The notes below the pieces were generated by a model. The model was not told the DNA's origin, searched no databases, and saw only the letters and a list, made by a program, of their open reading frames with translations. A stretch of DNA of 51,418 nt from an uncultured bacterium. Its GTDB lineage: Bacteria; Bacillota; Clostridia; Oscillospirales; Oscillospiraceae. The translations under genes and the position numbers were made by a program. The DNA lies in NCBI GenBank assembly GCA_948469375.1, contig CAOKLO010000022.1:1-51418 (forward strand). The letters run 5' to 3'. Below are positions 8,785 through 28,759 of this stretch, one piece after another (position 1 is the stretch's first letter; every line of letters starts with the position of its first letter).

Positions 8785-8814
8785 GGCGCAAACAGCTCCT
8801 TGCCTGTTTGCGTC
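8785..8814 (-). terminator. Terminator of the 19.5-kb surface/ECF operon
   Basis: On the minus strand GACGCAAACAG pairs with CTGTTTGCGC and is followed by TTTTTTATTTTT. It lies about 90 bp after the last gene of the operon. The plus-strand reading also ends in TTTT, so it may serve both directions. Confidence 0.85.
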
Positions 8815-8905: not shown

Positions 8906-11530
8906 TCATTCTACTAACCCATATTTTATCTTTAGCCGCTCCAGCTTCTCCAGCATAGGTTCCGCCGCGAACCAGAGGAACAGCCATGTTGCGGCGGCAT
9001 GGACACAGTCCATGGGAAACCCAGTGATGCAGTAGGTCAGAATGACCCCCCAGCCCAGTTCATCGGCCCACATGAGGGCGGAGGCCGGATTCATGATGCC
9101 GCCATAGATCACGATTGCCGACAGCGCGCCGAATACGCAAAGGCTCCCCCGGCTTCGCAGCAGCAACCCCTTGCGGAACAACACTCCGGCCAGAAATCCG
9201 ATGATGCCCATGGCGAACATCTGCCAGGGCGTCCATGGCCCCTGGGAGAACAGCATGTTGGAGGTCAGCATGGTCATAGCTCCCACCAGGAAGCCAGTCT
9301 CCCCGCCGAAAGCCACCCCAGCAATAATGGTCAGGGCCATAACAGGCTTGAACTGGGGTAGCATGAAGAACGCCGCCCGACCCGCCAAGGCGATGGCACA
9401 GAGCACCGCAATGATGATCAGCTCTCTTGCCTGGGGTTTCCGGCTCTCGAAAATGAGAAAGAAGGGAATCATGCACTCCAGCAACACCAGCAGGGCGATA
9501 AAATAGTATTTCTTCCCCTCCAGGTAAGTCTCCCCAATAAACAGCGTCAGGGGAATCAGCAGCAGGATCAGAATCGTGGCGGCTACCGTCCGCTTGGACA
9601 GTTTCCGCTTCTCCTTCGGGGTCTGGAGCAGATAGTCGGGGCGGTGGCTCCTGCGGCTGATACAGGCGGCAAAGACAAGCAGGGAGGCCAGGAAAACACC
9701 GTACAGCGCCAGCTGATTCCCCGCCAACGGCGTCATGCCCTCCAGCCCAATCAGGGAGGTCAGGTCCGTAACGCGCATAAATTGCAGGAACAGTGCCAGC
9801 GACACCGCGCCGAAGATCGCCGCGCCCACCTTCCGCCACCAGGGCAGAGGACCAGGAGCGGCGCTTTTCACGGCTTCAGAGGGCTTCGGCAGAGGGGGAA
9901 TGTCCTCCGGCAATTCCGGCTCCGGCGGCAGGTCTCCGCCGCAGGCGGCGATCACGTCCTCCGCCGTCACGGCTTCCAGGATGAGCCCCCGCGCCATACG
10001 GTTGGCGGAGGTGGTGTAGAAGCTGTTGCCGGAGAAAAATTCCCTGGGCGGGGCCTCTGTGACGATACTTCCGTCGAAGAACAGGGCGCAGCGGTGGGCA
10101 TACTGGGCACAGAACTCAATGTCATGGCTGACCATGAGGACGGTCACACCCCGGCGCAAGAGCGTCTGCAAAATCTCTGCGAATACCTGTTTGAACTCCG
10201 CATCCAATCCCTTGGTTGGCTCGTCCAGCAGGAGGATGTCCGGCTCCAGCAGCAGCACCTTCGCTAGCGCCGCCCGCTGCTGCTCCCCGCCGGAGAGGTC
10301 GTAGGGGTGCCGGTCCAGTAGCTCCCCCAACCGGCAGAGGGATACCGCCTGGGCGATGTCTGCATCCTTCTGCAGCTCCAGCAGGTCCTCCCGGACAGTC
10401 TTTTTCACGAACAACGTCTGAGGATTCTGTGGCAGTACGCCTACGCTTCCGTTCAGCTCCACCGTTCCCCGGTAGGGCTTCCGCTGGCCTGAGAGGACCT
10501 TCAGCGTGGAGGTTTTGCCCGTACCGTTGCCGCCCAGGAGAGCCAGGAACTCCCCCTTTCTAACCTCCAGAGACAAGCCCTTCACCACATCCGGTAGGTC
10601 TTGTTCATAGCGGAACCAGATTTCTTCCGCATGGATGGCTGTCTCGTCGAGGTAGGTATGCCTTTTCTGTTCCGGTAGAGGTTGAAATTCGTGCCGCCCG
10701 GCGAAACCCTCCAGCCAGTCCTTTCCCTCCCGGACAGTAACCGGGCAGGGGGCGTCGCCTTTTTCGGAAGCCGCCCAGATACGCATAGGGGCAGGCATAG
10801 CCAGGAACATCCCGTGACCGGTATCCTTCAGCGCCGCGCCAACTTCCGCCGGTGTTCCCACACACAGCAGTTTTCCCCTGTCCATCACGGCAACCCTGGC
10901 AGCCAGCGGGAAGGCGTCCTCCAACCGATGTTCCGTCAGGATGATGGTGGTTCCCAGCTCCCGGTTGATCCGGCCCAGCACCGCCAAAAAATCCGAGGCG
11001 GCGATGGGGTCCAGCTGACTGGTGGGCTCGTCCAGGATGAGGACAGAGGGCTGCATCGCCATGATGGAAGCAAGGTTGAGCAGCTGCTTCTGCCCGCCGG
11101 ACAGCTCGGTCACATTTTTATAGAACCATGTCTGGATACCAAAGAAGGAGGCCATCTCCGCCACCCTGCGGCGGATGGTGGGCGTGTCGTACCCCAGACT
11201 CTCCAGGCCGAATGCCAGCTCGTGCCACACCTTGTCCGTGACGATCTGGTTTTCCGGGGACTGCTGAACAAAGCCGATCCGCTCCGTCTGCTCCCGCTGG
11301 TCCAACTCGTCCAGCAGCCTGCCTTCAAAGAGGATTTCCCCGGTCCTCTTGCCGTGGGGAGCCATGACGGACTTGAACTGCCGCAGCAAAGTCGTCTTGC
11401 CGCACCCGGAGGGGCCGCAGAGGACCAGAAACTCTCCTTGTTCTATCGTCAGAGTTAGATCCTCAATCGCCGGAGCGGGCTGCTCTGGATAGAAGAAAGT
11501 CAGATGCTGGATTTGAAATATCCCTGCCAT
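8906..11530 (-). CDS. ECF transporter fusion: two ATPase domains plus membrane S-like part
   Basis: An 874-residue fusion. ATPase domain 1 (about 1-270) has Walker A GPSGCGKTT, signature ELSGGQKQ and Walker B VLILDEPT. ATPase domain 2 (about 300-530) has GGNGTGKTS, DLSGGEQQR and ILLLDEPT. These correspond to EcfA and EcfA', which drive uptake of vitamins through an EcfT scaffold. The C-terminal third carries about nine hydrophobic helices. The last six (from ELIIIAVLCAIALAGRAAFF through GPWTPWQMFAMG to the C-terminus) look like an S component, possibly the cobalamin-type CbrT group. A, A' and S on one chain is unusual. The start at 11530 has GGAAGGA six bases upstream and overlaps the preceding gene by none; an ATG at 11536 would overlap its stop codon. 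EcfT is coded three genes upstream. Confidence 0.88.
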   Translation of the reverse strand: MAGIFQIQHLTFFYPEQPAPAIEDLTLTIEQGEFLVLCGPSGCGKTTLLRQFKSVMAPHGKRTGEILFEGRLLDELDQREQTERIGFVQQSPENQIVTDKVWHELAFGLESLGYDTPTIRRRVAEMASFFGIQTWFYKNVTELSGGQKQLLNLASIMAMQPSVLILDEPTSQLDPIAASDFLAVLGRINRELGTTIILTEHRLEDAFPLAARVAVMDRGKLLCVGTPAEVGAALKDTGHGMFLAMPAPMRIWAASEKGDAPCPVTVREGKDWLEGFAGRHEFQPLPEQKRHTYLDETAIHAEEIWFRYEQDLPDVVKGLSLEVRKGEFLALLGGNGTGKTSTLKVLSGQRKPYRGTVELNGSVGVLPQNPQTLFVKKTVREDLLELQKDADIAQAVSLCRLGELLDRHPYDLSGGEQQRAALAKVLLLEPDILLLDEPTKGLDAEFKQVFAEILQTLLRRGVTVLMVSHDIEFCAQYAHRCALFFDGSIVTEAPPREFFSGNSFYTTSANRMARGLILEAVTAEDVIAACGGDLPPEPELPEDIPPLPKPSEAVKSAAPGPLPWWRKVGAAIFGAVSLALFLQFMRVTDLTSLIGLEGMTPLAGNQLALYGVFLASLLVFAACISRRSHRPDYLLQTPKEKRKLSKRTVAATILILLLIPLTLFIGETYLEGKKYYFIALLVLLECMIPFFLIFESRKPQARELIIIAVLCAIALAGRAAFFMLPQFKPVMALTIIAGVAFGGETGFLVGAMTMLTSNMLFSQGPWTPWQMFAMGIIGFLAGVLFRKGLLLRSRGSLCVFGALSAIVIYGGIMNPASALMWADELGWGVILTYCITGFPMDCVHAAATWLFLWFAAEPMLEKLERLKIKYGLVE

Positions 11531-11532
11531 CT

Positions 11533-12096
11533 TCATTCCTTCCGCAGCTTCAGCAGCAGTCCACCCACCAGCACCAGGTATTCCGGCAGTACATTGTCCT
11601 TGATCCACAGCAACGGCTTATGAAGATATCGCTCCGCAGTCTTCGCCACGTCCCCGCCCAGGGCTTCAATAGAGTACCGCATTTGCTCCGGGTACCGGCA
11701 TGGCGTTCCCTCCGGGCGGGTGCAGTTCTCTCCGCACAGGGTACATGTCCCGGCGGACAGGGCCAGTGATCCGGGGTTGGTGCGTTCCAGCTCCAGTGTC
11801 TCCTCCATCATCTGTGCCTTCGCCAGCTTCAGATCGTCCAGCGCCTGGGAAACGCTCTGGCCCGGCTCGCTGGGCAATACATAGGCAATCAGGCGCAGGG
11901 CCTGAAACCGCACCCAGATCTCCATCGGGTCTTCCCGGAAGGGCGGGCAGGACCAGCGGTTTCCATAGTTGCCGCACTCCTTGCAGTATTCCAAAAACCT
12001 GGGAACATCCACGCAGGTCTGCACATACTCCTCTATCGGGGGCGCGGCCTCCAGGCGCTCAAACCTTATGCGATGGTTTTCCTTCAAGAATTCCAT
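11533..12096 (-). CDS. DUF2284 cysteine-rich metal-binding protein
   Basis: A 187-residue DUF2284-type protein with two cysteine motifs: YCKECGNYGNRWSCPPF (about 38-54) and CTLCGENCTRPEGTPCRYP (about 117-135), the arrangement expected of an Fe-S or other metal-binding protein. The biochemical role of the family is not established. It is coded between the TIM-barrel gene (24 bp upstream) and the ECF fusion, whose start codon region touches this gene's stop. Its place in a transporter operon suggests a role in handling the imported corrinoid or metal, for example reduction, but this is inference. Confidence 0.75.
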   Translation of the reverse strand: MEFLKENHRIRFERLEAAPPIEEYVQTCVDVPRFLEYCKECGNYGNRWSCPPFREDPMEIWVRFQALRLIAYVLPSEPGQSVSQALDDLKLAKAQMMEETLELERTNPGSLALSAGTCTLCGENCTRPEGTPCRYPEQMRYSIEALGGDVAKTAERYLHKPLLWIKDNVLPEYLVLVGGLLLKLRKE

Positions 12097-12120
12097 ATTG
12101 TTTTCTCCTTGTCTGTCCGC

Positions 12121-13092
12121 TCAAAGTCCAAGCAGCAGATTCCGCTGCCGGCAAACCGCATCCCAACGCTGCCTCCGGTTCCCGCAGCTCAACTCGTGGG
12201 TCACGTATTCCGGCTCAATTTGTACCAAAACCGGGATGATGGAGGGATCGGACCAGGGCAGATGTTGGTCGATCTGTTGGATATGCCTATAGCTGACACA
12301 ATATCGCGCCGTGTAGTCTTCTGGCAGATTGTGCGGCAAAAACCCGGTATTGGATCTCACGTAATCCCCGCTCAGGGACTGGTGGAGATGGATGCCGCGA
12401 ATCTCCTCGGCAAGACTGCCGTGCTTCTCTACCATCGCTCGGATGTAAGCCGCTCCTTCGACCTGTGTGCGCAGCCTGGTGTTGGTGTTCATAAGGTGTC
12501 CCGTGTCCAGGAGGATGCCCCGCCGGTGATAATGGACACGCTCCAGCAGACGGGCAGTCTCCTTTGGCTCCAAAAAAGTGAAGCCGGGCCACCACTGATT
12601 TTCCATCAGGAAATCAAAGGGCCAGTCCCGCCCGTCCAGCAGGGCGTTGATAGCCTCAGCCGCGCTGTCAATGACCTCCTCGTTGGAGTGGAGCCAGCGG
12701 TAGGTGTAGCCCTCCTCAATGGAGACATCCGACACATGGAACACCACATATTCCGCGCCCAGACGGACGGCACAGTCCAGATCGGCCTGGTACAGCTCCA
12801 GGAGCGTATCCCGGCCCCAGCCGCCATAGAAGCGTTTGGCTGCATCCATACTGCCAAACTTCCGCTCAACAGCGGCCCTGTCCTCCCGGTAAAAGTCCAG
12901 CCAATCCGGGAAAAATGTCAGGTGATAGCCCACGACCATTTCTGTTGGGAGGTTTTCGGGGATGTCCGTCCCAGCCCAGATCCCCTCCAGACCGTCGCAG
13001 TTCAACCGGTGCAGCTCCTCTCGGAGACCTTCCCAGCCGCCGTACTCGGAGACGCTGTCTACGTCCAGCGGAAAGTTTATCAGGTGCCGCAT
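12121..13092 (-). CDS. TIM-barrel protein, sugar phosphate isomerase/epimerase-like
   Basis: A 323-residue protein resembling the xylose-isomerase-like/AP-endonuclease-2 TIM-barrel superfamily. Segments such as GLEGIWAG, MVVGYHLTFFPDWLDFY, GAEYVVFHVSD, ILLDTGHLM and IRGIHLHQSL alternate strands with metal-ligand type residues (His, Asp, Glu). Members isomerise sugars or cleave DNA, and many have unknown substrates. The start at 13092 lies 13 bases inside the end of the EcfT gene with GGGAGGAAAG upstream, so translation is coupled. Why a TIM-barrel enzyme sits in a vitamin-transport operon is unclear; modification of the nucleotide loop or sugar of a corrinoid is one possibility. Confidence 0.7.
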   Translation of the reverse strand: MRHLINFPLDVDSVSEYGGWEGLREELHRLNCDGLEGIWAGTDIPENLPTEMVVGYHLTFFPDWLDFYREDRAAVERKFGSMDAAKRFYGGWGRDTLLELYQADLDCAVRLGAEYVVFHVSDVSIEEGYTYRWLHSNEEVIDSAAEAINALLDGRDWPFDFLMENQWWPGFTFLEPKETARLLERVHYHRRGILLDTGHLMNTNTRLRTQVEGAAYIRAMVEKHGSLAEEIRGIHLHQSLSGDYVRSNTGFLPHNLPEDYTARYCVSYRHIQQIDQHLPWSDPSIIPVLVQIEPEYVTHELSCGNRRQRWDAVCRQRNLLLGL

Positions 13093-13991
13093 GAGCTTTC
13101 CTCCCTGTCCAGACGTTTCCAGGTCTGTTCCTCCCGTCTGTCCACAATCACCGGCGTCAGGCACAGCGCCAGATAGCAGAGGTGCATCATGACGGTCAGC
13201 GGCGTGACCGGCGCTCCCTTTATTGTGGGGTAGTACCGCCAGTAGAATCCTCCGGCCATCCAGCCGGAGGCGATGAAAAAACCGCAGAAACCCAGCCAAA
13301 GCAGAGCGGCCTTGTCCCGGCTGTCAAACCGGTAGATGGAGAACGCTGTCCGGCCCGGCAGGCCGTAGCCCCGGCTTTTCATGCTGTCCGCCGTCTCAAT
13401 GGCGTTTTCCAGCGCCCAGGTGATGAGGATGGATAGGATGGTGACGGCGGTTTTGATCCTCTGCCAGACCGTCCCCTCGGACACGTCCCGGCCCACACAC
13501 CGCTGGGCTTCCGTTACCGCCTGCAGCTGGGCCTTGAATTTAGGTACGAACCGCAATGTCATGGACAGCACCAGGGACAGAGCGGGGATGATCCTGCCGA
13601 ACAGATAGATGAACTTGTCCGAGGTCATCACCGCCGTGTAGCACTGGAACCAGACAATGACCGCCGCCAGGAGAATCCCGGCGGAGATCCCGTACAGGAT
13701 GCTCTCCAGCGTCAGCGGATTGCCGGTAGGCAGATAGGTCAGGATGGTCACCCCCGCGTGGTTAAACGCCGGGTTGACGATCACCGCAATCCCCATCATG
13801 GGCAACAGCCAGAGGAGATTTTTGCCCAGAGCCTGCCGCCCATTTAGCTGTGCGGCGTAGATCAGGGCGGTTATCAGGGAGATTGCCTGGGCTGCCGGAT
13901 GGGTGAAGAACATGGCGAGCACCAGCACCAAGGCGAAGTATAGAAAGTTCACCAGGGGGTGGTAACTGGAAAAGGCATCTTTGCTCCGCAT
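13080..13991 (-). CDS. ecfT: ECF transporter transmembrane component EcfT
   Basis: A 303-residue integral membrane protein of the EcfT/CbiQ family. It has about five to six hydrophobic helices (for example FLYFALVLVLAMFF and LLWLLPMMGIAVIV) and the cytoplasmic coupling motif ADSMKSRGYG, matching the conserved Ala-Arg-Gly coupling helix that contacts the ATPases. EcfT links the ATPase pair to the substrate-binding S component. Here the ATPases and the probable S component are on one chain coded three genes downstream, so the transporter appears dedicated rather than shared. It follows the DUF4430 gene by one base and overlaps the TIM-barrel gene by 13 bases. Confidence 0.9.
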   Translation of the reverse strand: MRSKDAFSSYHPLVNFLYFALVLVLAMFFTHPAAQAISLITALIYAAQLNGRQALGKNLLWLLPMMGIAVIVNPAFNHAGVTILTYLPTGNPLTLESILYGISAGILLAAVIVWFQCYTAVMTSDKFIYLFGRIIPALSLVLSMTLRFVPKFKAQLQAVTEAQRCVGRDVSEGTVWQRIKTAVTILSILITWALENAIETADSMKSRGYGLPGRTAFSIYRFDSRDKAALLWLGFCGFFIASGWMAGGFYWRYYPTIKGAPVTPLTVMMHLCYLALCLTPVIVDRREEQTWKRLDREESSCGT

Positions 13992-13992
13992 A

Positions 13993-14877
13993 TCAGCCGC
14001 CCACCGCCCTGCTGCCGTCTACGTCTGCCCCCAACTCGCAGGTATACACCCACTCCACCACGTCGCCGTCCTGGAGCTGGTATCGGGAGCAGCCATAGTT
14101 GGGGAACCAGCCGTTGACGCTGTACATCCAGCCGGATTGTTCGCCGCAGTCAAACTCATACAGGTTGTTGATACCCTCGATGTAGGCGGAGTTATACATG
14201 GGCGTGTCGGTAAACTCCATATGAATCTTTGCCTTCTTCAATTCCCGCTGAAGGACGTTGAACACGCTCTCGCCCTCATAGAAGGTGACTTCTGTGGCGG
14301 GGAAGATCACGCCGTCCTCCGGCACCAGCTCCACCTTTTCCGGGTTCAGCCAATCCATGTTGTTCAGGATCGTGTCACACCGGACGGAAAGGGTACAGGT
14401 GTAGGCCGTATCGGAGAATACCGCGTCCTGGGGCTCCACCGGGAGGGGCTTGCCCTCCGGGACGGGGTCGGTCTGGTATTTGTCTTTTCCTGTCTCCGGG
14501 TCAATCTCCATGCCGCCTGCCTCGGAGTATTCCACAGATGATTCATGGTCAGGCGTAGCGCCGGTTTCCGCGTCTGGGGAAGTTTCCTCTGGTGTATCCT
14601 CTGCCGGTTCCTGCGTTTCTTCCGGCTCCGTGGAGGTGTCCGGCGCGGGTTCCGAGTCGGGTTCCAGCTCTGGCTCCGTCGAAGGAGCAGGATCGTCTTT
14701 CTTCTGTTCCAGCACTGCGGTGGGAGAGGCCGGGTCTGCCGCTATTGTATCAGGAGGTTGGTTCACTGCGCCCTGCAGGCCGGGGGCGTTCCCGCCATAC
14801 CAGAAGGCGGCGGCAAGAACGATCACGATCAGTAGGGGCGCAATGACCTTCCACTTGTTTTTCTTCCACCAGTTCAT
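13993..14877 (-). CDS. Membrane-anchored DUF4430 (transcobalamin beta-like) protein
   Basis: A 294-residue protein. A single N-terminal membrane anchor (VIAPLLIVIVLAAAFWYG, about 11-28) is followed by a Pro/Glu/Thr-rich spacer (about 45-130) that could span the cell wall. The C-terminal domain (about 160-290) is of DUF4430 type: SVFNVLQREL, then SGWMYSVNGWFPNYG and DGDVVEWVYTCELG. DUF4430 is related to the C-terminal beta domain of transcobalamin and intrinsic factor, which covers one face of cobalamin. The gene overlaps the upstream barrel gene by four bases and abuts ecfT. A membrane-anchored beta domain next to an ECF transporter suggests ligand delivery to the importer (inference). Confidence 0.82.
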   Translation of the reverse strand: MNWWKKNKWKVIAPLLIVIVLAAAFWYGGNAPGLQGAVNQPPDTIAADPASPTAVLEQKKDDPAPSTEPELEPDSEPAPDTSTEPEETQEPAEDTPEETSPDAETGATPDHESSVEYSEAGGMEIDPETGKDKYQTDPVPEGKPLPVEPQDAVFSDTAYTCTLSVRCDTILNNMDWLNPEKVELVPEDGVIFPATEVTFYEGESVFNVLQRELKKAKIHMEFTDTPMYNSAYIEGINNLYEFDCGEQSGWMYSVNGWFPNYGCSRYQLQDGDVVEWVYTCELGADVDGSRAVGG

Positions 14878-16502
14878 AGCAGTTCCGCCTTATCCAGCAG
14901 GTTATAGAGCATCTGCGCCACCTCGCACCGCTTCACGGCGTCGGCGGGCCAGATGTCCAGGTCGGATTGGCTGAGAATATCCGCGTGATAGCAGAACGCC
15001 AAAGGGGGACGGGCATACTCGCTGGTCCGGATATAGTCGGTGAACTGCGCCAGCACATTTCGTATGGCGGAGGCATCCATATCCGTATCCAATCCGCAGA
15101 GCTTCGCCGCGCGGGCCGCCATGACGGCGGCGTCCTCCCGCTTAATGGTTCCGCCAGGATTGAAGGTGGTCGCTGTTGTGCCGGTGATGATGCCGTACTT
15201 GTAGGCCGCACCCACGTAGGGGGCGTACCACTGATCCGCTGATACGTCTGTGAACTGCCCGGTGGTTTCCGTGGTCAGGCCCAGCGCCCGGACGATAATT
15301 GCGGCAAATTCCGCCCGCGTCATGGTGTTGTCGGGGTTGAAAACGCCGTTGCTGCCGGAAATGATCCCCCGCGCTGCCATGGCTTCAATGGCAGACTGAT
15401 TCGTGTGACCGGCGATATCAGGGAAGGTGGTTCCGGGGGCGGTGATAGAGGTTTTCTGTACCGCCGGGTCCTTTCCCGCAAGGCCCGTCCCGGTGGAAGC
15501 GCCGGGCGTTGAGGGCGCTGTGCCGGTGTCGCTCATGCGGTAGAGGCTGGCCTGTCCCTTTGCCGCCCGCAGAGCCGCCACCAAGCCATAAAAGCCCTGC
15601 TCGGATGCCATCTGGTTGGACCCGGAGCCGTCCGCCGTGTGCAGGAAGCTGCCATCCGCCTGCCGGAAGGTCAGAAGGTTGTCCAGCAGTGTGACGCCGT
15701 TCTTCACGAACCGGCTGTCGTCGAGGCCGATGCCCAGTTCGCACAGGGCCGCGATCACCTGGACGCAGCTCTCGGAGTTGGCGGTCCCCCAGGAACCGAA
15801 GCCGCCGCTCTCGGTCTGCATGGCGCTCAGACACGCCAGCGCCTCATCCGTCGCGGTCTTGACGGCGCTCTGGTCCTGGTACTTCGCCAGGGCTTGCAGG
15901 GCCATGCCGGTGAGGTCCGCATCCGCGGCGCCTGCCCCGCCCTTGCCCGTCAGGTTCCAGCCGCCGTCATCCAACTGCCGGGAGAGGATTTCATCAATGT
16001 ACCGCTGCTGGATGCCGGGAGCGCCTGCCGGCTCATAATTGCCGCTGTCCAGTGCGATGAGCGCCCAGATGGGGCCGTTGATGCCCTGCCAAACGGTTTT
16101 CTCAAAGTCCCCCAGGGGCTTCACCAGGTCGTACCCCGCCACATCGGTTGGGTCCGCACCGATGGCCGTCAGGGCCAGAATCACCCGGCTGTACTCCGTA
16201 TATTTCCGCTCGTCCAGGATTCCTTTTTTGTTCTGAACATATTTTGTTACTGTGCTCAGATAGCTGTCATAGTAGCTCTGCGGCACATCGTATCCGCTTC
16301 GGGCAAGCCCGATCACCGCCCACTCGCCGCCGATGGACCCTACCTGCGGGCCCTTTACCGCTTGCAGCATATAGGCCGCGCTGCCGTCCACTGCTTTTTG
16401 CAGATCACTCTGCGTCACCGCCGCGCTGGCCGGGGCCGTCAGGCCCAGCAGCAGGACCATGACCAGCAGGAGGCTGGCCGCTCTTTCTTTCGTCCCTTTC
16501 AT
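14874..16502 (-). CDS. SLH-anchored prenyltransferase-like alpha/alpha barrel protein
   Basis: A 542-residue secreted protein. A signal peptide (1-27, ending APASA) is followed by an alpha/alpha barrel with terpenoid-cyclase/prenyltransferase-type repeats (about 30-325; for example DGGWNLTGKGG, SGGFGSWGTANSESC, QADGSFLH). Three SLH domains follow (about 355-540; FPDIAGHTNQSAIEAMAARG, then MTRAEFAAIIVRALGL), which anchor proteins to the pyruvylated cell-wall polymer. The barrel fold is shared with the alpha domain of transcobalamin. No catalytic Asp-rich motif of true cyclases is apparent. Four-base overlaps with genes on both sides indicate tight coupling. With the DUF4430 protein coded next, it would supply the two halves of a transcobalamin-like binder. 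Confidence 0.85.
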   Translation of the reverse strand: MKGTKERAASLLLVMVLLLGLTAPASAAVTQSDLQKAVDGSAAYMLQAVKGPQVGSIGGEWAVIGLARSGYDVPQSYYDSYLSTVTKYVQNKKGILDERKYTEYSRVILALTAIGADPTDVAGYDLVKPLGDFEKTVWQGINGPIWALIALDSGNYEPAGAPGIQQRYIDEILSRQLDDGGWNLTGKGGAGAADADLTGMALQALAKYQDQSAVKTATDEALACLSAMQTESGGFGSWGTANSESCVQVIAALCELGIGLDDSRFVKNGVTLLDNLLTFRQADGSFLHTADGSGSNQMASEQGFYGLVAALRAAKGQASLYRMSDTGTAPSTPGASTGTGLAGKDPAVQKTSITAPGTTFPDIAGHTNQSAIEAMAARGIISGSNGVFNPDNTMTRAEFAAIIVRALGLTTETTGQFTDVSADQWYAPYVGAAYKYGIITGTTATTFNPGGTIKREDAAVMAARAAKLCGLDTDMDASAIRNVLAQFTDYIRTSEYARPPLAFCYHADILSQSDLDIWPADAVKRCEVAQMLYNLLDKAELL

Positions 16503-17179
16503 TTCGTCTCCTCCATATTTTTTGTGGCGGCTCCTGCCGCCTGTTTTTCCCGTTCTTCCTGCCAGTATTTTTTCAGGTGCCGCAGTTCGCTCCCCCGCAG
16601 GATGGGGATGCCCATCATTTTCATGACCTGCCCGGCTCCGCCAAACTTATTGAGCCGGGCTTTTTCCTCAGGGGTAAGCTCCGGCGTCATTCCTGTCTCC
16701 CGCGCCCTCCGGCACAGGTCCTTCAGGAGAGCCAGCTCCGTCTCGTCAGGCGGCTCCCGCCACCTTTTTTCCAATATCGGGGTGACGGACACCCGCTCCG
16801 GCCAGTCGATAGGCCACTGCTGCTCGTTCCGCATCCGCCGCTTGGCCTGCTCCGTGACCTCCGCGAGATTTCCAAAGCGCCGCCGCAAATAGCGGAGGCA
16901 GACGCAATAAATATCGTTATAATCCGGCTTGTGTCCACGGTGGGCCATGGTACGGATGACCACATCCAGCAGCTCCTCAGATGAAAAGCTGTCGTAGATT
17001 TGCCGCCCCCGCCAGCCGTTCGGGTCAAATATGTCCCAGGTGGCCGTATCACACCGGCTCAGATCGCCTCCCGGCCGGTGCGCCGCCTCGTCCAGCTCCG
17101 CCAACTGCCTGCGGTAGGATGCCAGCTCTTTTTCCGTGAGCGGCCTCCCCTGGCTGGGAGGCTTTCCCTGTGTGCTCAT
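16499..17179 (-). CDS. Small soluble protein with a homing-endonuclease-repeat-like segment
   Basis: A 226-residue, charged, probably cytoplasmic protein with no firm function. The middle part (SEELLDVVIRTMAHRGHKPD, then CLRYLRRRFGNLAEV) resembles the short repeats found beside HNH homing endonucleases, which bind DNA. No nuclease motif is visible. The start at 17179 has GGAAGG upstream; the frame runs 74 codons further back without a site and through a strong hairpin. It overlaps the next gene by four bases. A DNA-binding protein inside a surface/transport operon could be a regulator, but the similarity is weak. Confidence 0.45.
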   Translation of the reverse strand: MSTQGKPPSQGRPLTEKELASYRRQLAELDEAAHRPGGDLSRCDTATWDIFDPNGWRGRQIYDSFSSEELLDVVIRTMAHRGHKPDYNDIYCVCLRYLRRRFGNLAEVTEQAKRRMRNEQQWPIDWPERVSVTPILEKRWREPPDETELALLKDLCRRARETGMTPELTPEEKARLNKFGGAGQVMKMMGIPILRGSELRHLKKYWQEEREKQAAGAATKNMEETK

Positions 17180-20400: not shown

Positions 20401-23400
20401 GGTCCACCATCTGGCGCACAATCGCGCTGTTCACACCAGCGGGCAGGGTCCGCCTTCCGGTGTAGTAGGGGGCCAGGGCCTGCACCGCCATGGCGGTGGT
20501 ATCTGTGTCCGCACCGCCGGAGACGCTGGAGATGGGCCACCCGCCGCCGGGCAGCTGGGCGCTGGACAGGGCGTTGATCCACTGGGCCCGGGCCGCGTTG
20601 CCCTGGGTGTCGTCCCGGTAGTTTCCGGAATCCAGGGCGATGAGGGCGAAAGCCGTGCCGTTGTTGCCCTGGACGGAAACCTGCTGGCAGCCGTTATCAA
20701 AGAGGGGCGTCACGAAATCATAGCCCTCATAGCTGGAAGCGTCCTCCCCCAGCGCCGTCAGCGCCAGGATCACACGGGAATACTCTGTGTGCTGGTAGCC
20801 GGAGGCGTCCAGCTCTCCGCCGTGCTGCCGGGCGTAGTAGTATAGGTTGTTCCGATATTTCTCTGTGACAGCGGGGGTGATGGTCCCGCCACGGGCCATC
20901 CCCAGCACGGCCCATTCGCCGCCTGTGGCTCTTACGCCGGGGTTGGGCGTCTGTCCGGCGACCCGCGCCAGAGCGGCGGTCAGGGCGCTGCCGTAGGTGG
21001 AGGTATCCACCCCGGGTCCCGGCTGGTCCGGGGTGATCTGTCCGCCCCGCCCCTCCTCCAGGGTGTAGTTGTCCGTGTAGTGGAAAACAATTTGGTTCCC
21101 ATCGTATACTGTCCAGCTGTTCAGGCCCCGGTCGGGGTGGGTCCCGTTGACGGTATACATCCAGCCGGAGAGCCTGCCGTTGGTGAACTCTCCCAGGGGC
21201 GTTCCGCCGGGCTTGGTGATGGATTTGATGTAGTTGCTCTCTAAGCCAACATAGGTGTAGCCCGCCTCGTTCAGCACCAGCTTGAACACATCGCCCACCG
21301 TGGAACCGGCGGGAACTTCGATGCCCGTGCGGTCGATCCACTTCTGAAGCCCGCCGCCGCTGAGGGTGTGGGTGTTGGCGGTGCCGGGGTCTCCGTGGGC
21401 GTCGTCGCCCAGGAGCTGGAAGGATACCGAGATCGTCCCCTCCGGCCTGACCTCATAGGCTTTCGCCGTGATGGTGCCGCTGATGGGCAGCGTCTGCTCC
21501 ACATAGGTGGAGGTGCCGGGGGTGCCCTTGGAGAAGGTCACCTGGGCGGTATAGCTGCCGTTGGTACCTGCCGGGGTTCCGGCGGTTCCCTCCACGGCGG
21601 GCTGGAGGTTCGTTACCTCGATCTTGCAGTCCACGTTCCCGGCGGCAGTGGACAGGGCGGTGCTGATGTAGGTTTTGACCGTGGGTTCCGTGTTCGCCGT
21701 CCCCATGGGGATGGTCCAGCCAGTCATGGCGCTGGCGTTGTTATACGCCGCTTCCACCGCCGCCTGGTTCTCCGCCAGGGTGCCGGACACGGTAGCCGTC
21801 TTGATGGTATAGGTCGCTTTTGTGCCGTTTTCAGCGGTCACGGTGAACTGCCAGAGGCCGTCGCCGGCAGAGGTGACAGGGCCGACGGTTGCGCCGCCCT
21901 CATCTGCCACAGTGACCACGAACAGGGTGGGGCCCACACTCTCGCCCGGCTGAAGCTCCAGGGTGTAGTTGTAACCGCTCTCATCGGGCGTCAGCGGTGT
22001 GCTGTTGTAGGTGACAGATGCCACGCTGGTGTCCCCGGAGGGTTCGTAGGGCTTGGCGGGAAGTATGACAGTGATGATGACGGTCTGCGTTGCGTACTGC
22101 GTGGCACGCTCCGGCCCCATATAGGGTACGGCCTCCGCCTCCTGGATAACTTCTTTCTCATGGAAACCAGTATCCTCGGGGACAATGGGCATCTCTTCGG
22201 GGATAACGGTGGATTCTTCATGGAAGCCGGTATCCTCGGGAACGATGGGTGTCCCTTTGGGGATAACAGTGGATTCCTCGGTAGGCGTGACCTGTTCCTC
22301 CGGGGGAGTGGGCAGGATGGTGCTGTCCCCAACCATATTCTTCGGCTCGTCCAAATCGACGGAAGCCGCAGGACCGGCCTCATAGGGGGAGGCAAGCGTC
22401 ATGGTGATTTTGGCACTGCCGTTCGTGCCATCCTGGTCATCCCTGCTCCCGTCAACAGGCGGCACAATCTCAGTCACGCTTACGCTCTGCACCCTCACGG
22501 CGCCGGGAACTAGGGCGCGGGCCCAGCCGTCGATCTCAGCCTCCGTCCGCATACCCACAGGAAGCCTCTCGCCATTTGCTTTTTCAACGATGCTGGCCGC
22601 GCCGTTGACGTTGGCCTGGGCGAGAGCCTGGGCGTCGTCGGAGGCCGCAATGCGGATGGTATACGTGGCGGACGCCCCGCTGGCGGCGGTGATGGTGAAG
22701 GTCCAGGTGTCGAAGCTCTGCCGGACAGGTGTGCTGATTACTGCCGCGCTGTCCTTGGGCACGATCTGGAAGTCCAGATCACCCACCATGCCCTGCTCCG
22801 CCTTCTCCTTCTCCAGCGTCACGGTCACGGCATAGCCGTCCACCGTTCCGGTTTTTCCCAGCACGGTGACAGACCGCAGGCCAAAGTCGCCGGAGAGATA
22901 CGGCGTCGCCGGGAAGGACTTGGAGCGGGTCACGGTGTCACTCAGACTGCCTCTGGTCAGCGTCACGGTGAAGGTTACCTCGCCCGGCGTGCCGTTGGGG
23001 GAGATCTCCGTGCCGTCTATCGGAGCTTTGGCGGTATTCACAGTCACAGCTGCGGTGACGCCGCCGGGCAGCGTTACACCCGCAAGCTGCGACCTGATCT
23101 CAGTCTCGGCGTCCGCTGTTGTAGTGGCGGTGAGCCAACTCAGAGTATCGAGTGCAGCGGCTACGCTCCGCTTGGCAGCCTCCAAGTCGTCCCGGTCCGT
23201 ACTCGGACTTGTCTCGAAGGCGTCCCGCATGGTATAGAGCGGCGTCCTGCCGCTTGTATACCGGCTGTAGGCCACCAGAGCGTAGGCCGCCTGCTCGGTT
23301 GCCATATCGTCCTGCTCGCCCAGCGCATGACCGAATTTGCCGTCCTTGTAGAACGCCATCAGGGCGTTGACCGGGTTCTTGAAAGTTGTGCCGCAGACCG

Positions 23401-26400
23401 TCCAGGTGTCGCCGGTCAGAGTCCCGTTCCCGGTGTGATACGCCAACGCCGTCAGCGCCACGATCACCTGGGAACAGCTCTCGGAGTTGTAGGTCCCGTT
23501 GCTGTAGAACCCGCCCTGGGGGGACTGCATCCCGGCGAGAAGGGACAGGGCTTCATTGATTGCCTTCTGGACATTGAGATCTGACAGATAATATGGGGCC
23601 AGCGCCTGGATCGCCATGGCTGTCATGTCCACGTCGGATTTCACGCCGTCGTAGGAGAAGCCGCCATCACTGGTCCGGTTGCGCAGGATCGCGTCGATGT
23701 AGGTCTGCCGCAGGGTGGTGTTCTCCGGGCAGTAGGGCTTGGAATCCAGCGCCAGCAGGGCGAAAATTGGGCCGTTGATGCCCTGGGAGATCACCGCGTC
23801 GGTTTCCCCCAGCTTGGCGATGAAGTTGTAGTTTCCGCCGTTGCCCGCCTGATAATTCTCCGCGTCAATCCCCAGCGCAGAGAGTGCCAGGACAATACGG
23901 GAATACTCCGTGTGTTGATTCCCGGTGGGGTCCAGGCCGTTTAGACCTGACTGCCCCAGCGTTGTGTCCAGCGCTGCAAGATACTTCTTTGCGAACACTG
24001 TATCTGTTGGGAATGTCCCGTCTTCCATTGCTTCGGCGTCAATGTCAGTCATTAACTGCCGCGCTATAGCAAGCACCGTCCACTCGCCGCCAGTACTGCC
24101 AACTACAGGAGTCTTACCCTGGAAGGAGGTCAATGCAGCATTCAGTGCATCGCTCCACGTCGAACTGGTGGAGGAAGCCGTCAGATTGCGATAGGTTTCC
24201 TCCGCAGCGGCCAGAACGTCATAATTGGTTACTTTAGCCTTTTCCCCTGTGCTCAGCGCATTATAGGCTGCTCTGGCTTTTTCAATGTCCGATTTGCTGC
24301 GGGGACTTACGCTACCGATAGCGTTGATAAGACGAATGACCTCGTTTGCGGGAGTTTCTTCCTTGAAATGCCCGTAGCGGCGGAAATCATTGGTCTTGTC
24401 GCCATCGCCGTCCAAGTCAATATCCTTGAACAGATCTTCCATTTCCGCAATACCCAGAATTCCAAGATAACCGGCATCTCTTGGTGGGTATCCGTTCGCT
24501 ACCATCTTCTCGTTGACCATTGCCTCAATGGCCTCATCGGTCATTATCGCCGAATCGACCTTTTTGTAGAGGTAATAGTACCGCAGCAGCGCCCAGGTCC
24601 AGGTTCCCTCGTGGGCGGGAGAGTTCCAAGCCATGACATCGCCATCGGAAGTTTTGAAGCCGGAAACACCAACATTGGAATAGCCTTCCGCACTGGTAAA
24701 AAAGCTTCCGTAGTTGCCGTCATCAAAGCCGGGGCCTTTGTGGGTAATCTGTTTTCCTGTGTCGTCCTCGCCTCCCCAGGTAACATGATTCACCGCTGCG
24801 CCGAAAGCGCTCATGGTGTACTCATAAGTCCAGTTGTTGGGAAATGCTCCATCCAGCGCAGCGATTGTGCTGAGATGTCCATTCATCAAATATCCGTTGT
24901 TATTGGAGGGAACACCAACGAGAATGGGTTTGGAGTCTTGTATCTGAAGGGTCTTATGGTTGCTTCCATTAAAGCGCCAAACCACAGCATCTGCACCCAC
25001 ACCCTTGGCCGCATCCGCTACCAGTTTCAGAGACTGTTCCAGAATAGCGGCCTTCTCCGCATCTGTATCGGCAGCAAGGATTTTGGAAACCTCTGATTCA
25101 TAGATGTAATCCAGATTGTACCGGAATGGATCATAGCCGGTCGATGTACGGAGACTGTTGTAGAGATTCCGCAGCTTGGTTACATAGGAATCGTTGGTAT
25201 TCATGACCTTGATAGGAATTTTCCAGGTTTTGCCGTAGTAGGGCCACTCCACCACCGCCGTGATGTAGTCTGTCTCTGGCATCTGGAGCCGAAGATCCAG
25301 ATTCAGTCCGCGAAGCTCTCCGCTAAAGAAGCCTGTATACGGATGGAGATTGATTGGATAGTATGCGATCTTTCCATCAACGAAATACATGCCTGTGGAA
25401 AGTTGATTCTCGCCCGATACAAGGAGGTCGTCGGGCTCCCCTTCCACGCCGTTTCCGGCATAAACTGAAATTTTAACCGGGTTTTCACTGGCCTGCCAGG
25501 GGAAGGTACCATGGAAAGGAACATGGAGGTTGATATAAGCCCAGTCCCCTGCCTTGTAGTTCTTCACCGGTGTGCCGTCCGGCGATACACCAGCGGTGAG
25601 AGCCACGCTGGTTTCCTGATTTACGACATCCACCGAGAACCGCGATATTGATGTTTCCTCTCCCATCTGTGCAAAGAGCGCGTCAATATCCATTTCTTTG
25701 AAATGGAAGTCCAAGGTCGCATCCTCAGTGATGGTAACATCAAAAGTCGCCGTGGAGCGGCGACTGTCGCGCATGTTATCCGAGCCGGATTCCTTTGTAT
25801 CGTAGGTGTAGCTGACGGAATCCCATGCGGCGGTTTCTGTTCCGCTCGCCGTAGTCAACGTGTAGCCGTCATACTCGTAGCCGGGGTTGGCGGAGGCGGT
25901 GACGGTATAGCTGGTAGCTTGCTTACCATCCTCAAGCAACACATTACGACCAGAATCAGATAACTCTACACTGCCAGCAACACCGTCCGATGAGGGCGAG
26001 GAAACTTCTAATTTGGCTTTGTCAAATGCCACAAGACTGTTTTCCTCAAAAGAAAGGTCAACAGTCAGTGTTTTTACAAACGATGAAGGAGAGTTTCCCG
26101 GGTACATAATTTCGATGCAACCATCTGTTCTCCATGTTATTGAAAGTGGGGATTTATTTGACAGTGCTCCAGGATAATCTTGAATCTCGGTAGGATCGGC
26201 ACCAGCGGAAACAGGAATATCCTCTGTTGATTTTGGAGACAGTTGTTCAATGGTTGGATCGTTCTTACTCTTTTGTCTGGTTCCACCAAATTCTAATTTT
26301 TTCAGTAAATATTTGCATTCATTTGTATTCTGACCATAGTTATTGATGGACAAAATTATAGGGTTAGCTTTGCCTGTAAGCACACATGAATATTGAAATT

Positions 26401-26668
26401 TTCCTGTCTCATTAGTCTTTGATTCAATTTGTTTGTAGCCACCATCGCACCAAACTTGTAACCAAGGATCTTCCGATGATGAAGTGGCGAGTTCTACATT
26501 GCTGGTGATATAAAATGTTGGATCACCATAATTTCCCCATTTTGCTTGTGCCTCAAATTGTAGAAAATCTAATGAGAAGAGGATTACAAGAATAAAGGAC
26601 AAAAGGCGCTGGGCCCGGCTTACGCCGGACCCAGCCCTTAACATCTTTTTACTGCATTTTTTCTTCAT
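17423..26668 (-). CDS. Giant SLH surface protein with two barrel/DUF4430 modules
   Basis: A 3081-residue secreted protein. A signal peptide (about 1-42) leads into an N-terminal region of beta-rich modules, with a calcium-loop-like DIDLDGDGDKTND near 770. Barrel 1 of the prenyltransferase-like alpha/alpha type spans about 845-1150 (DGGFSYDGVKSD, QGGFYSNGTYNSESC). Beta-sandwich modules follow, then DUF4430 domain 1 (about 1735-1870; SGWMYTVNGTHPDRG). Barrel 2 spans about 1890-2190 (PGGGWPISSVSGGADTD, ASGGFGSSETDAQ). Beta modules follow, then DUF4430 domain 2 (about 2505-2640; GSGWMGTLNDWF), a charged helical segment (about 2755-2870) and three SLH domains (about 2895-3075). Both halves of a transcobalamin-like binder thus occur twice on one chain. 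The start overlaps the upstream gene by four bases. Domain edges are estimates. Confidence 0.85.
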   Translation of the reverse strand: MKKKCSKKMLRAGSGVSRAQRLLSFILVILFSLDFLQFEAQAKWGNYGDPTFYITSNVELATSSSEDPWLQVWCDGGYKQIESKTNETGKFQYSCVLTGKANPIILSINNYGQNTNECKYLLKKLEFGGTRQKSKNDPTIEQLSPKSTEDIPVSAGADPTEIQDYPGALSNKSPLSITWRTDGCIEIMYPGNSPSSFVKTLTVDLSFEENSLVAFDKAKLEVSSPSSDGVAGSVELSDSGRNVLLEDGKQATSYTVTASANPGYEYDGYTLTTASGTETAAWDSVSYTYDTKESGSDNMRDSRRSTATFDVTITEDATLDFHFKEMDIDALFAQMGEETSISRFSVDVVNQETSVALTAGVSPDGTPVKNYKAGDWAYINLHVPFHGTFPWQASENPVKISVYAGNGVEGEPDDLLVSGENQLSTGMYFVDGKIAYYPINLHPYTGFFSGELRGLNLDLRLQMPETDYITAVVEWPYYGKTWKIPIKVMNTNDSYVTKLRNLYNSLRTSTGYDPFRYNLDYIYESEVSKILAADTDAEKAAILEQSLKLVADAAKGVGADAVVWRFNGSNHKTLQIQDSKPILVGVPSNNNGYLMNGHLSTIAALDGAFPNNWTYEYTMSAFGAAVNHVTWGGEDDTGKQITHKGPGFDDGNYGSFFTSAEGYSNVGVSGFKTSDGDVMAWNSPAHEGTWTWALLRYYYLYKKVDSAIMTDEAIEAMVNEKMVANGYPPRDAGYLGILGIAEMEDLFKDIDLDGDGDKTNDFRRYGHFKEETPANEVIRLINAIGSVSPRSKSDIEKARAAYNALSTGEKAKVTNYDVLAAAEETYRNLTASSTSSTWSDALNAALTSFQGKTPVVGSTGGEWTVLAIARQLMTDIDAEAMEDGTFPTDTVFAKKYLAALDTTLGQSGLNGLDPTGNQHTEYSRIVLALSALGIDAENYQAGNGGNYNFIAKLGETDAVISQGINGPIFALLALDSKPYCPENTTLRQTYIDAILRNRTSDGGFSYDGVKSDVDMTAMAIQALAPYYLSDLNVQKAINEALSLLAGMQSPQGGFYSNGTYNSESCSQVIVALTALAYHTGNGTLTGDTWTVCGTTFKNPVNALMAFYKDGKFGHALGEQDDMATEQAAYALVAYSRYTSGRTPLYTMRDAFETSPSTDRDDLEAAKRSVAAALDTLSWLTATTTADAETEIRSQLAGVTLPGGVTAAVTVNTAKAPIDGTEISPNGTPGEVTFTVTLTRGSLSDTVTRSKSFPATPYLSGDFGLRSVTVLGKTGTVDGYAVTVTLEKEKAEQGMVGDLDFQIVPKDSAAVISTPVRQSFDTWTFTITAASGASATYTIRIAASDDAQALAQANVNGAASIVEKANGERLPVGMRTEAEIDGWARALVPGAVRVQSVSVTEIVPPVDGSRDDQDGTNGSAKITMTLASPYEAGPAASVDLDEPKNMVGDSTILPTPPEEQVTPTEESTVIPKGTPIVPEDTGFHEESTVIPEEMPIVPEDTGFHEKEVIQEAEAVPYMGPERATQYATQTVIITVILPAKPYEPSGDTSVASVTYNSTPLTPDESGYNYTLELQPGESVGPTLFVVTVADEGGATVGPVTSAGDGLWQFTVTAENGTKATYTIKTATVSGTLAENQAAVEAAYNNASAMTGWTIPMGTANTEPTVKTYISTALSTAAGNVDCKIEVTNLQPAVEGTAGTPAGTNGSYTAQVTFSKGTPGTSTYVEQTLPISGTITAKAYEVRPEGTISVSFQLLGDDAHGDPGTANTHTLSGGGLQKWIDRTGIEVPAGSTVGDVFKLVLNEAGYTYVGLESNYIKSITKPGGTPLGEFTNGRLSGWMYTVNGTHPDRGLNSWTVYDGNQIVFHYTDNYTLEEGRGGQITPDQPGPGVDTSTYGSALTAALARVAGQTPNPGVRATGGEWAVLGMARGGTITPAVTEKYRNNLYYYARQHGGELDASGYQHTEYSRVILALTALGEDASSYEGYDFVTPLFDNGCQQVSVQGNNGTAFALIALDSGNYRDDTQGNAARAQWINALSSAQLPGGGWPISSVSGGADTDTTAMAVQALAPYYTGRRTLPAGVNSAIVRQMVDRALAFLSGQQTASGGFGSSETDAQIVVMLSALGRDAASDSSFTKGGRSVLEDLLGYRDTATGGFSHRQDSGVDQMATEQAAYALVAYDRYKHSRNTLYDMTDVFTAEAASPVIPIQAVVTGGVPTAAVPAQKVAEAISEAQKTGSGTIAIKTAGGESASAVAVELPAQSMQAAASAGVGMTVKTAKGTVSIPAEAARAIVQTAGGADTIRIHAETKTLSAVHDILGEDLDAGSAVIEVTITANGQPIKSSLGSRPVNVRIPVGRNFTVGRQYDVTVIHSAVDIERNRTGVCARNGSDRYVELTVNRLSTFVVKAVAEDRTVTATAGDNGKITPSGDVTVPNGDSQRFTIEADEGYELKELLLDDEKVQYVWVEGVEKELTSSSHIKAADYILSDVTEDHTLRAEFKRGIQLPDYGPVIGQVTITVENSTYSGGAFTGTMVSGTYDLCQRDTMMTSILKALTLNGYAWSDSSGKDDYDITYIAHITKDDASLGEFDGGSGSGWMGTLNDWFTNEGFQAFRVGGYGGHALEDGDEIHVVYTTNLGADVGGGRGYPDTSLASLDISGGTLVPKFSGDALEYTLMVPERGTDVTVTPHAVNKTFMVKTFLNNYNSESSLYKRTKSIPVKPGDTLYIGVGESGWPTSFDAGSYSATCYTIKVVSSDIQSRIDALPKPEEITYENYKGYVELVERLRKDYDKLKDEEKAEIKAEKLIEVEKRIKLFQEIDKTKELLNAIPEAKDLKKSNARKIQEQVKAAYDAYQKLTEEQQSYIAKEDVTKHNAAVEWLEKLGYKTDGPILIGEDGKKPAALPFTDVDKHWALESIQFVYEHNLMNGTSATAFEPNSEMTRAMFVTVLYRMEGQPSAGTANSFTDVPEGQWYTEAVKWAAANSIVNGMTPDTFQPNANVTREQMAALMFRYAKYKGYDITAAAELGNYTDNGQVHDWAYRAMQWANGVGLIQGRTETTLVPAGTATRAENATILMRFLQRFEAAKYQ

Positions 26669-28407
26669 TTGACGATCACCAATTGGGAACTATCATTTCC
26701 GAAAGCACCAAATTGAACATCAACAGTCTCGCCCTCTTCGTCTTCTTCTGTATACATGCCCATTGCAAATCCCTGAACCGCATAGCCGTTACCACCGGAA
26801 GAAGGTGTAACGCTCCACTGGAGAGAAGCGCTGTCAGAAGCATACTGGCACTTGTAGCAGTATCCGCTTCCGTTCGGCATGTTTGTGGTGAAGTAAATAT
26901 AGTCTGTCGTATCCTGACTATACACCACCGGAGAGCACTGCACCAAGTCACCGGAGTATACGCTGTGAACATCATTATCTGTGAAGTGACTCCGGCTTAC
27001 CGCCACGATATAACCCTCGCCAACAAACGCCTTATTGTAGCCATAGACGCTGGCGTAAATCAGTCCGCTAGAGGAAATCACCGGGGTGGAAGCGCTATTG
27101 GAAGCACTCCCCGTAGCGATGTTCACGGAATTCACTTTAGTAGAATCAAAACCGCTGTCGGTGAGCTTGACCCTCCACAGGATGGCGTTCTGACTGGTCA
27201 AATAGATGTAACCCTCGGTACTATCATAGCAGATGCTGGAACGAATCTTTCCGGCGTTGGAAAGAATCTCCGTATCGCCTGCTCCTCCGCTGAAGTTTGT
27301 AACGGGCCGCATATACAGTGTTCCGCTCTCACTGCCGAAGATTACGTTGCTGCCAACAACCACCGCACCGGCGTTATAGAAACTGTTGTTATTGCCGGGA
27401 GTGAACTTGCTGAGCGGTGACGTTGCCTCGGAATCGGTGTTGTACTGGAAGTAGGATACGTCGCCGTCGTAGATGCCAAAGTACACGTAGCCGCCTGCCA
27501 GGGTCAGGGGAGAAGCAGGCTGACCATAGCCGTTGTTGCTGGGATTATCGGGATCGCTGCTGGGTTCCGCAGTTAGCATCTTGACTTGAGGATTATTGCC
27601 GTCGATGCCGGTAACCTGGAACATCTCCCAATAGTTCACCAAAGCCTGTGCGCCTGCACCGGTCCACAAAACGTCGCTGGTCATGTTATTGGTGATAGTC
27701 ACATCAACGGTATAGGTACCCTTCTGGAGAGGACCGCCGCTATAATCACCGTAGTAGAGGCTGAAGCCCTGATCTTCATAGGAAGAACCGGAAAGTGTGG
27801 CTACGGTGCTGCCATTTTTCTTGATAGTAGCGTTACCGCTCAGAGAGGTACTGGGATTTGTCTTCCACTCCGTATTGGAGAGACCAGTGGCAATCTGCAG
27901 GTTACTATAGGTGTACGGGAGCGTGAACGAGAAACTCCTGGTTTCTTTCCCACCAGCGGGGATGGTAACGTCCTCAAAGTTCGTTGTCTTGGTGTCATGT
28001 CCATAGGTATATACACCATACATGGTCTTGCCATCCGCAGTAATGACCGGCGTGGCGACCTGGGAGACGTTGTTTGCCTTGGGGCCAACAACCGTTGTCC
28101 AGAGTTGGCTGCCATTGGTGGCGCTCACAGCTGTCACGGTTGCGCCGTTGCTGCCGCCGTTGTGGAAGGCGTAGATGCGGCTGCCATAAACCAGGGGTTC
28201 CACGTCCAGGCCGGTGGTCGCACCGTTATTGGGGAGGGGTACTGTGGTAGTGCTGGGACTCGTGCTGGTAACGCCGTAGGTAGAAGTGCCGTTGTTGTCG
28301 TCGTTGCCCTGGAAGCTGTCCCAGTCCGCAAAAGCGGTAGAGGTGGCGGCCATCAGCATGGCCAGGAACAGGGCGATGGTCCTCTTGAGATTCTGAATGC
28401 GTTTCAT
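26665..28407 (-). CDS. Secreted beta-propeller-like protein (PQQ-repeat type)
   Basis: A 580-residue exported protein. A signal peptide (MKRIQNLKRTIALFLAMLMA, cleavage after TAFA) is followed by repeats typical of PQQ-like beta-propellers: SRIYAFHNGG, TMYGVYTYG, GYVYFGIYDGD, NVIFGSESGTLY, GYIYLTSQNAILWRV and LIYASVYGYN. A carbohydrate-binding-like insert may lie at about 120-230. No SLH or sortase signal is visible, so it may be released or held by the giant protein coded next. It is the first gene of the operon. The start at 28407 has AAAGGAG eight bases upstream. A role as ligand-binding or scaffolding subunit is inference. Confidence 0.75.
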   Translation of the reverse strand: MKRIQNLKRTIALFLAMLMAATSTAFADWDSFQGNDDNNGTSTYGVTSTSPSTTTVPLPNNGATTGLDVEPLVYGSRIYAFHNGGSNGATVTAVSATNGSQLWTTVVGPKANNVSQVATPVITADGKTMYGVYTYGHDTKTTNFEDVTIPAGGKETRSFSFTLPYTYSNLQIATGLSNTEWKTNPSTSLSGNATIKKNGSTVATLSGSSYEDQGFSLYYGDYSGGPLQKGTYTVDVTITNNMTSDVLWTGAGAQALVNYWEMFQVTGIDGNNPQVKMLTAEPSSDPDNPSNNGYGQPASPLTLAGGYVYFGIYDGDVSYFQYNTDSEATSPLSKFTPGNNNSFYNAGAVVVGSNVIFGSESGTLYMRPVTNFSGGAGDTEILSNAGKIRSSICYDSTEGYIYLTSQNAILWRVKLTDSGFDSTKVNSVNIATGSASNSASTPVISSSGLIYASVYGYNKAFVGEGYIVAVSRSHFTDNDVHSVYSGDLVQCSPVVYSQDTTDYIYFTTNMPNGSGYCYKCQYASDSASLQWSVTPSSGGNGYAVQGFAMGMYTEEDEEGETVDVQFGAFGNDSSQLVIVK

Positions 28408-28429
28408 GACTGTATCTCCTTTCAAATTT

Positions 28430-28720: not shown

Positions 28721-28759
28721 CGAATAGCCTGCTGATTCACACAGCCAATGGTATGGTTT

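Follow-up and report, generated by a model that had tools for sequence, protein, structure and literature searches.

A predicted corrinoid capture and import operon of an Oscillospiraceae bacterium, combining transcobalamin-type surface domains with a CbrT-like transporter

Introduction

What is taken up by an operon that joins very large cell-wall proteins to the genes of an energy-coupling factor (ECF) transporter? The question is raised by a contig of an uncultured, gut-type bacterium of the Oscillospiraceae (CAOKLO010000022.1, assembly GCA_948469375.1), of which the whole 51,418-nucleotide stretch analysed is called here the window. Nine minus-strand genes (28407-8906) follow one another in it in the order P0009, P0008, P0007, P0006, P0005, P0004, P0003, P0002 and P0001. 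A reading made from the sequence alone, without database searches, had proposed that their products capture a corrinoid at the cell surface and import it. This proposal is well supported by the homology of the transporter to CbrT, the fold of the DUF4430 domains, riboswitches on homologous operons and fusions of alpha/alpha barrels to DUF4430 domains, whereas the five riboswitches and the novelty that it also claimed fell away. Building on domain identities, gene order and the riboswitch context of relatives, all of which are directly observed, we regard the operon as a whole as probably a Gram-positive capture and import system for corrinoids (the B12 family), the binding of which is a prediction.

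The ECF transporter

13080..13991, minus strand: P0004, EcfT (Pfam CbiQ, 2.9e-8; PDB EcfT 5d3m, 1.1e-10)
8906..11536, minus strand: P0001, EcfA-EcfA'-S fusion (Pfam: two ABC ATPase domains and an ECF S-component domain)
8918..9436, minus strand: CbrT-like S domain of P0001 (query P0011; PDB 6fnp_A, 2.8e-9)

These matches bear out the EcfT and the EcfA-EcfA'-membrane fusion discerned in the sequence-only reading. When the S domain was compared with 177,635 distinct PDB sequences at E-values up to 10, its sole match was 6fnp_A (E 2.8e-9, residues 42-214 of P0011 against 7-177, 173 residues), and against NCBIfam it gave only matches far below the cut-offs. The entry 6FNP is CbrT, the S component of a Lactobacillus delbrueckii importer shown to carry cobalamin and cobinamide, according to the available part of Santos et al. 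(2018, PMC5997447).

Transcobalamin-type domains and alpha/alpha barrels

13993..14877, minus strand: P0005, DUF4430 protein, single N-terminal membrane segment (read from sequence)
14874..16502, minus strand: P0006, secreted alpha/alpha barrel with SLH
17423..26668, minus strand: P0008, SLH surface protein of 3081 residues with two barrels and two DUF4430 domains
23219..24121, minus strand: P0008 barrel A, residues 850-1150 (own profile)
21062..21334, minus strand: P0008 DUF4430 domain A, residues 1779-1869 (Pfam 1.2e-10, residues 1788-1865, and own profile)
20096..20968, minus strand: P0008 barrel B, residues ~1901-2191 (own profile)
18761..19072, minus strand: P0008 DUF4430 domain B, residues 2533-2636 (own profile, independent E-value 2.2e-22, partly a self-match; not listed by Pfam)
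17456..17980, minus strand: P0008 SLH cell-wall anchor (Pfam PF00395)

P0005 matches Pfam PF14478 (DUF4430) at 3.6e-20, and in structure comparison the model of this domain (predicted local distance difference test, pLDDT, 89.9) has the beta-domain fold of intrinsic factor and transcobalamin. The three DUF4430 domains counted earlier were recovered, those of P0005 and P0008 A by Pfam and that of P0008 B by our own profile only, as were the three barrels (P0008 A, P0008 B and P0006, by own profiles) and the SLH domains (by Pfam). Because the barrel and DUF4430 profiles were built from relatives plus the window sequences, their E-values on window proteins are partly self-matches, including those of the two P0008 barrels (independent E-values 1.4e-96 to 4.1e-85); toroid matches of the window barrels in Pfam lie under its cut-offs. 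Barrel and DUF4430 domains were folded as separate models, the AlphaFold2 model of the P0006 barrel reaching a pLDDT of 95.3.

The barrel as a specific relative of intrinsic factor was a candidate that we could not substantiate, squalene-hopene and drimenyl cyclases being the best matches by sequence and fold; that intrinsic factor does not appear among the 50 VIA rows listed counts neither for nor against it. That these cyclases are the best matches would suit secreted terpene-cyclase or prenyltransferase-like enzymes, an explanation of the barrel proteins that we hold to be extremely improbable. The cyclase motif is DxDD, and its last Asp is missing in P0006 (D-A-D-L), in P0008 barrel B and throughout the 14 barrel rows aligned, where the last position is T, M, I, L or V and the first Asp is kept in 12; moreover, the barrel proteins look secreted and wall-anchored, and their context is that of a B12 regulon.

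Homologous operons and their riboswitches

A search for EcfT across 197 genomes of the order gave matches in 98, from which 73 matches at E<=7.4e-30 were kept, in 71 genomes including that of the window; weaker matches were set aside, and the 17 of them located in the kept genomes served as a control. The cobalamin riboswitch (RF00174) and DUF4430 were searched in the own genome and all 70 others. On the co-occurrence that the sequence-only reading put forward as a check, a cobalamin riboswitch lies on the same strand within 16 kb upstream of EcfT in 33/73 cases (within 6 kb in 31), three of these calls (G034 C24, G101 and G196 C5) being below the Rfam cut-off, against none of the 17 ordinary EcfT genes. 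At the control positions there was one riboswitch upstream on the opposite strand, one downstream on the same strand and none downstream on the opposite strand. DUF4430 is found within 3 kb upstream of EcfT in 53/73 cases. Conversely, 54 of the 73 riboswitch matches (9 below cut-off) are followed by DUF4430 within 10 kb or by this EcfT within 16 kb, and 58 of 127 DUF4430 domains are preceded by a riboswitch at no more than 10 kb. The AdoCbl-II riboswitch, searched in the 71 genomes, matched in five and exceeded its cut-off in one.

The arrangement in genome G055, whose EcfT is 68% identical to that of the window, starts with a long DUF4430-SLH protein and a P0007 homologue, continues with an extra SLH gene, a barrel-SLH protein, DUF4430 and EcfT, and ends with a TIM-barrel gene and EcfA-EcfA'-S; no DUF2284 gene was found in this operon and no barrel in its long protein. 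Riboswitches lie 51 bp 5' of the long protein, 195 bp 5' of the P0007 homologue and 19 bp 5' of the extra SLH gene. As a side observation, the window EcfT (13080-13991) is 63-68% identical to those of three other genera of the family and only 43-46% identical to those of three genomes of its own genus, which could reflect transfer, paralogy or mis-binning of the contig (contamination stated as 6.24%).

A scan of a one-genome-per-species collection gave at least 595 stretches encoding an EcfT relative, and counts were taken from those of the best 80 loci with enough flank. Upstream of EcfT, DUF4430 was found within 1 kb in 57/72, a barrel within 4 kb in 40/52 and SLH within 4 kb in 34/52; downstream, all 58 have the ATPases and all 58 an S domain of the P0001 type within 4.2 kb. 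An all-Rfam scan of seven loci showed an upstream sense cobalamin riboswitch in four (Sporobacter termitidis, Candidatus Formimonas warabiya, Anaerovorax sp. IOR16 and a Pelotomaculum metagenome-assembled genome).

It could be that the transporter and P0005 import corrinoids and that the SLH barrel proteins bind none, being S-layer or polysaccharide-binding proteins that share the operon. The generic fold of the barrel would allow this, as would the lack of a barrel match within 4 kb upstream of EcfT in 12/52 loci and a riboswitch-headed DUF4430 and CbrT-like pair without a barrel match in the own genome (L055, below). However, barrel and DUF4430 are fused in one chain beside EcfT in L041, L070 and L071, with the barrel first as in intrinsic factor (only the L041 toroid passes the Pfam cut-off), and in L038, L042, L058, L061 and L062 barrel genes have a riboswitch directly in front of them or overlapping their called start. 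We therefore think this explanation rather unlikely.

Riboswitches of the window and of its genome

33087-33273, plus strand: cobalamin riboswitch before BtuF/FecCD/ABC (BtuFCD-type), CGGC and CbiK genes, not the operon's (Rfam)
42187-42413, minus strand: cobalamin riboswitch heading an iron alcohol dehydrogenase (Rfam)
50088-50271, minus strand: cobalamin riboswitch heading a nickel/oligopeptide-type ABC transporter (Rfam)

Rather than the five cobalamin riboswitches placed beside the operon earlier, Rfam gives these three in the window, with no further match at E<=5. The first opens a plus-strand stretch (33087-40642) of BtuF/FecCD/ABC-type genes, a CGGC protein, the CbiK cobaltochelatase, a VWA-like protein and an AAA ATPase; the other two head minus-strand units at 40771-42413 and 44662-50271.

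The whole own genome has six RF00174 matches. In L054 a DUF4430-SLH protein of 1564 residues stands behind a riboswitch, and in L055 (3349-4569) a riboswitch comes before the genes of a small DUF4430 protein and of a free-standing S component (CbrT match, 1.5e-12). A third locus, L057 (~14000-14800), has a DUF4430 match and then a similar membrane protein, S-component-like by eye only. The arrangements in L055 and L057 suggest, from gene order, that DUF4430 works next to an S component.

Evidence on the other side

Several observations count against corrinoid capture and import. No riboswitch was found on the operon itself, Rfam giving none in the upstream stretch 28300-30000 nor in the 243-bp gap, and the nearest (33087-33273) lies 4.7 kb from its start on the opposite strand. 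Among the 73 homologous EcfT genes, 40 show no RF00174 switch upstream (contig ends and the stricter filters applied to more than 40 genomes can conceal switches), and 20 have no DUF4430 match within 3 kb upstream. In the collection, no switch was seen in the available stretches of three of the seven loci (Flavonifractor plautii, Fusibacter paucivorans and L076). The last of these has a closer EcfT (72%) than G055 and a conserved gene order, and its available stretch starts close to its long gene. Rescanning 16 switch-less loci with all of Rfam added only one further B12 switch, an AdoCbl-II in L070 that precedes the fused barrel-DUF4430 gene; the other RNAs, besides a T-box in L063, were two cyclic di-AMP switches on the opposite strand, one flavin mononucleotide (FMN) switch downstream (L067), and tRNA and tmRNA genes. 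In L063 (4089-6774) a T-box leader and an open reading frame of 474 residues stand directly before EcfT and the ECF genes, on the same strand. A DUF4430 profile run against PDB sequences found no animal carrier (three matches, E 0.21-0.6, unrelated), so that the link to these carriers needed the fold comparison, and the barrel is a generic toroid nearest to terpene cyclases, with transcobalamin (8ixt) only at Foldseek rank 47.

Finally, Pfam labels the S domain a riboflavin component (ECF-ribofla_trS), above its cut-off. Together with the name CbiQ, this would fit an ECF module for another substrate (riboflavin, cobalt or another vitamin), the B12 signals being incidental. Other S components have solved structures, and that CbrT is the only PDB match of the S domain thus argues against such a module. 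So do the sense cobalamin riboswitches on homologous operons and the all-Rfam scans of 23 loci, in which no riboswitch for a different vitamin, the outcome that would have told against corrinoids, lies upstream on the operon strand. We consider a substrate other than a corrinoid very improbable.

Proposed mechanism

In the corrinoid capture and import that we favour, SLH-anchored proteins with alpha/alpha barrels and transcobalamin-type beta domains (DUF4430) would hold corrinoids at the cell surface. The membrane-anchored P0005, alone or with the P0006 barrel, would keep the corrinoid beside the membrane and hand it over to CbrT, and a dedicated ECF transporter (EcfT and the EcfA-EcfA'-CbrT fusion) would import it with ATP, as its homology to the assayed ECF-CbrT suggests. 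Of the homologous EcfT genes examined, nearly half are preceded by a cobalamin riboswitch, from which we infer that the system would be shut off when corrinoid is plentiful.

ECF transporters are not known to rely on substrate-binding proteins outside the cell. The chances seem to us about even that the membrane-anchored transcobalamin-type beta domain is the delivery partner of the CbrT S component, and that the wall barrels complete a split bacterial intrinsic factor which relays corrinoids across the wall. If so, ECF uptake would gain a new mechanistic class, and the animal B12 carriers a living counterpart in bacteria.

Operon layout and neighbouring genes

26665..28407, minus strand: P0009, first gene, secreted (signal peptide read from sequence), weak beta-propeller similarity (Pfam PQQ_2, 3.1e-5, under gathering score)
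17180..17422, minus strand: 243-bp gap with two hairpin-like stretches (by eye)
16499..17179, minus strand: P0007, no family assigned
12121..13092, minus strand: P0003, TIM-barrel protein (AP_endonuc_2), accessory gene
11533..12096, minus strand: P0002, Cys-rich DUF2284 protein, accessory gene (Pfam 4.6e-23)
8787..8812, minus strand: terminator-like hairpin 3' of the last gene (hairpin scan)

The nine genes and their tight packing stand as first described, with distances in operon order of -4, 243, -4, -4, 1, -13, 24 and -4 bp, whereas the 38-bp overlap also reported depends on the choice of start and is at most 13 bp here. The terminator placed at the operon end corresponds to a terminator-like hairpin (8812-8787) with a 9-bp stem followed by CCTTTTTTAT, of a kind expected 0.7 times by chance in the 600-bp region scanned. 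P0007 has zero matches in Pfam, NCBIfam and PHROG; the G055 operon has a homologue, and 4/52 loci have one near EcfT. A TIM gene of the P0003 type stands near the equivalent position in 6/58 loci, and a DUF2284 gene likewise in 6/58. P0002, P0003 and P0007 offer no functional lead beyond their Pfam names; conjecturally, P0002 and P0003 may process the imported corrinoid.

Upstream, the palindrome TCANNNGTGA (mostly TCACNNGTGA) is clustered at 29044-29347 and 30587-30662, flanking an HTH_3 gene (29395-29922, minus strand). It has 23 matches in the window (both strands counted) against 5.5 expected, a number reached in none of 100 shuffles, and the clusters look like an operator array immediately upstream of the operon. 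A 19-nt inverted repeat, 84% complementary, lies at 28645-28692, about 240 bp 5' of the first gene. Near the operon's 3' end, 5640-7873 holds what we take, from the translations, to be an integrase-like and a PemK/MazF-like gene, with an Rfam pemK RNA at 7637-7712.

Comparison with known systems

That no bacterial system of this composition had been described, as the sequence-only reading held, is wrong, because Burroughs et al. (2007, PMC1796856) described the composition and proposed B12 scavenging. The available part of that paper, which defined the SLBB superfamily, reports bacterial proteins with a toroid and a transcobalamin-type domain, along with surface paralogues and a version with a beta-propeller, from operons that also hold CbiO and CbiQ; scavenging of B12 or its precursors is offered as a prediction, and low-GC Gram-positives are suggested as the source from which animals obtained the pair. 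The window operon shares with these operons a secreted transcobalamin-type beta-grasp domain, an associated alpha/alpha toroid, paralogous surface proteins, a CbiO-like ATPase and a CbiQ-like membrane protein. It differs from them, as far as that part of the paper goes, in its SLH anchoring, the protein of 3081 residues, which carries a pair of barrels and a pair of beta domains, the fusion of EcfA-EcfA' to a CbrT-like S component, and the TIM and DUF2284 genes. The literature matches listed, from a search whose scope left out most subscription literature, contain no experimental work that joins DUF4430 proteins to ECF transporters.

BtuG-type systems of Bacteroides are made of other protein families and use an outer-membrane transporter. 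Their surface lipoproteins (PMC6143338, available part) likewise capture B12 at the surface and hand it to a transporter, an analogy only. With ECF-CbrT of L. delbrueckii the window has in common a CbrT-family S component, EcfT and two EcfA domains; there, in the part of the source available (PMC5997447), separate subunits make up an ECF module that is shared, whereas here the module is dedicated, with S fused to the ATPases, and stands beside extracellular candidate binding proteins. The layout of intrinsic factor, one chain with an N-terminal barrel and a C-terminal beta domain, is seen in L041, L070 and L071. In the window, unlike in intrinsic factor, transcobalamin and haptocorrin, the barrel and the beta domain belong to different chains (P0006 and P0005), or the beta domain directly precedes a barrel in one chain (P0008), and the proteins are anchored to wall or membrane.

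The general idea was thus predicted in 2007; what is new comprises the assignment to CbrT, the controlled riboswitch evidence, the structural match and the operon variant (SLH anchoring, the EcfA-EcfA'-CbrT fusion and the long two-barrel, two-beta-domain protein). This evidence makes direct testing possible and names the proteins to assay, bears on the proposal that animal B12 carriers came from Gram-positive bacteria, and links a gene neighbourhood widespread in Clostridia with both an S component proven for B12 and the fold of the human B12 carriers.
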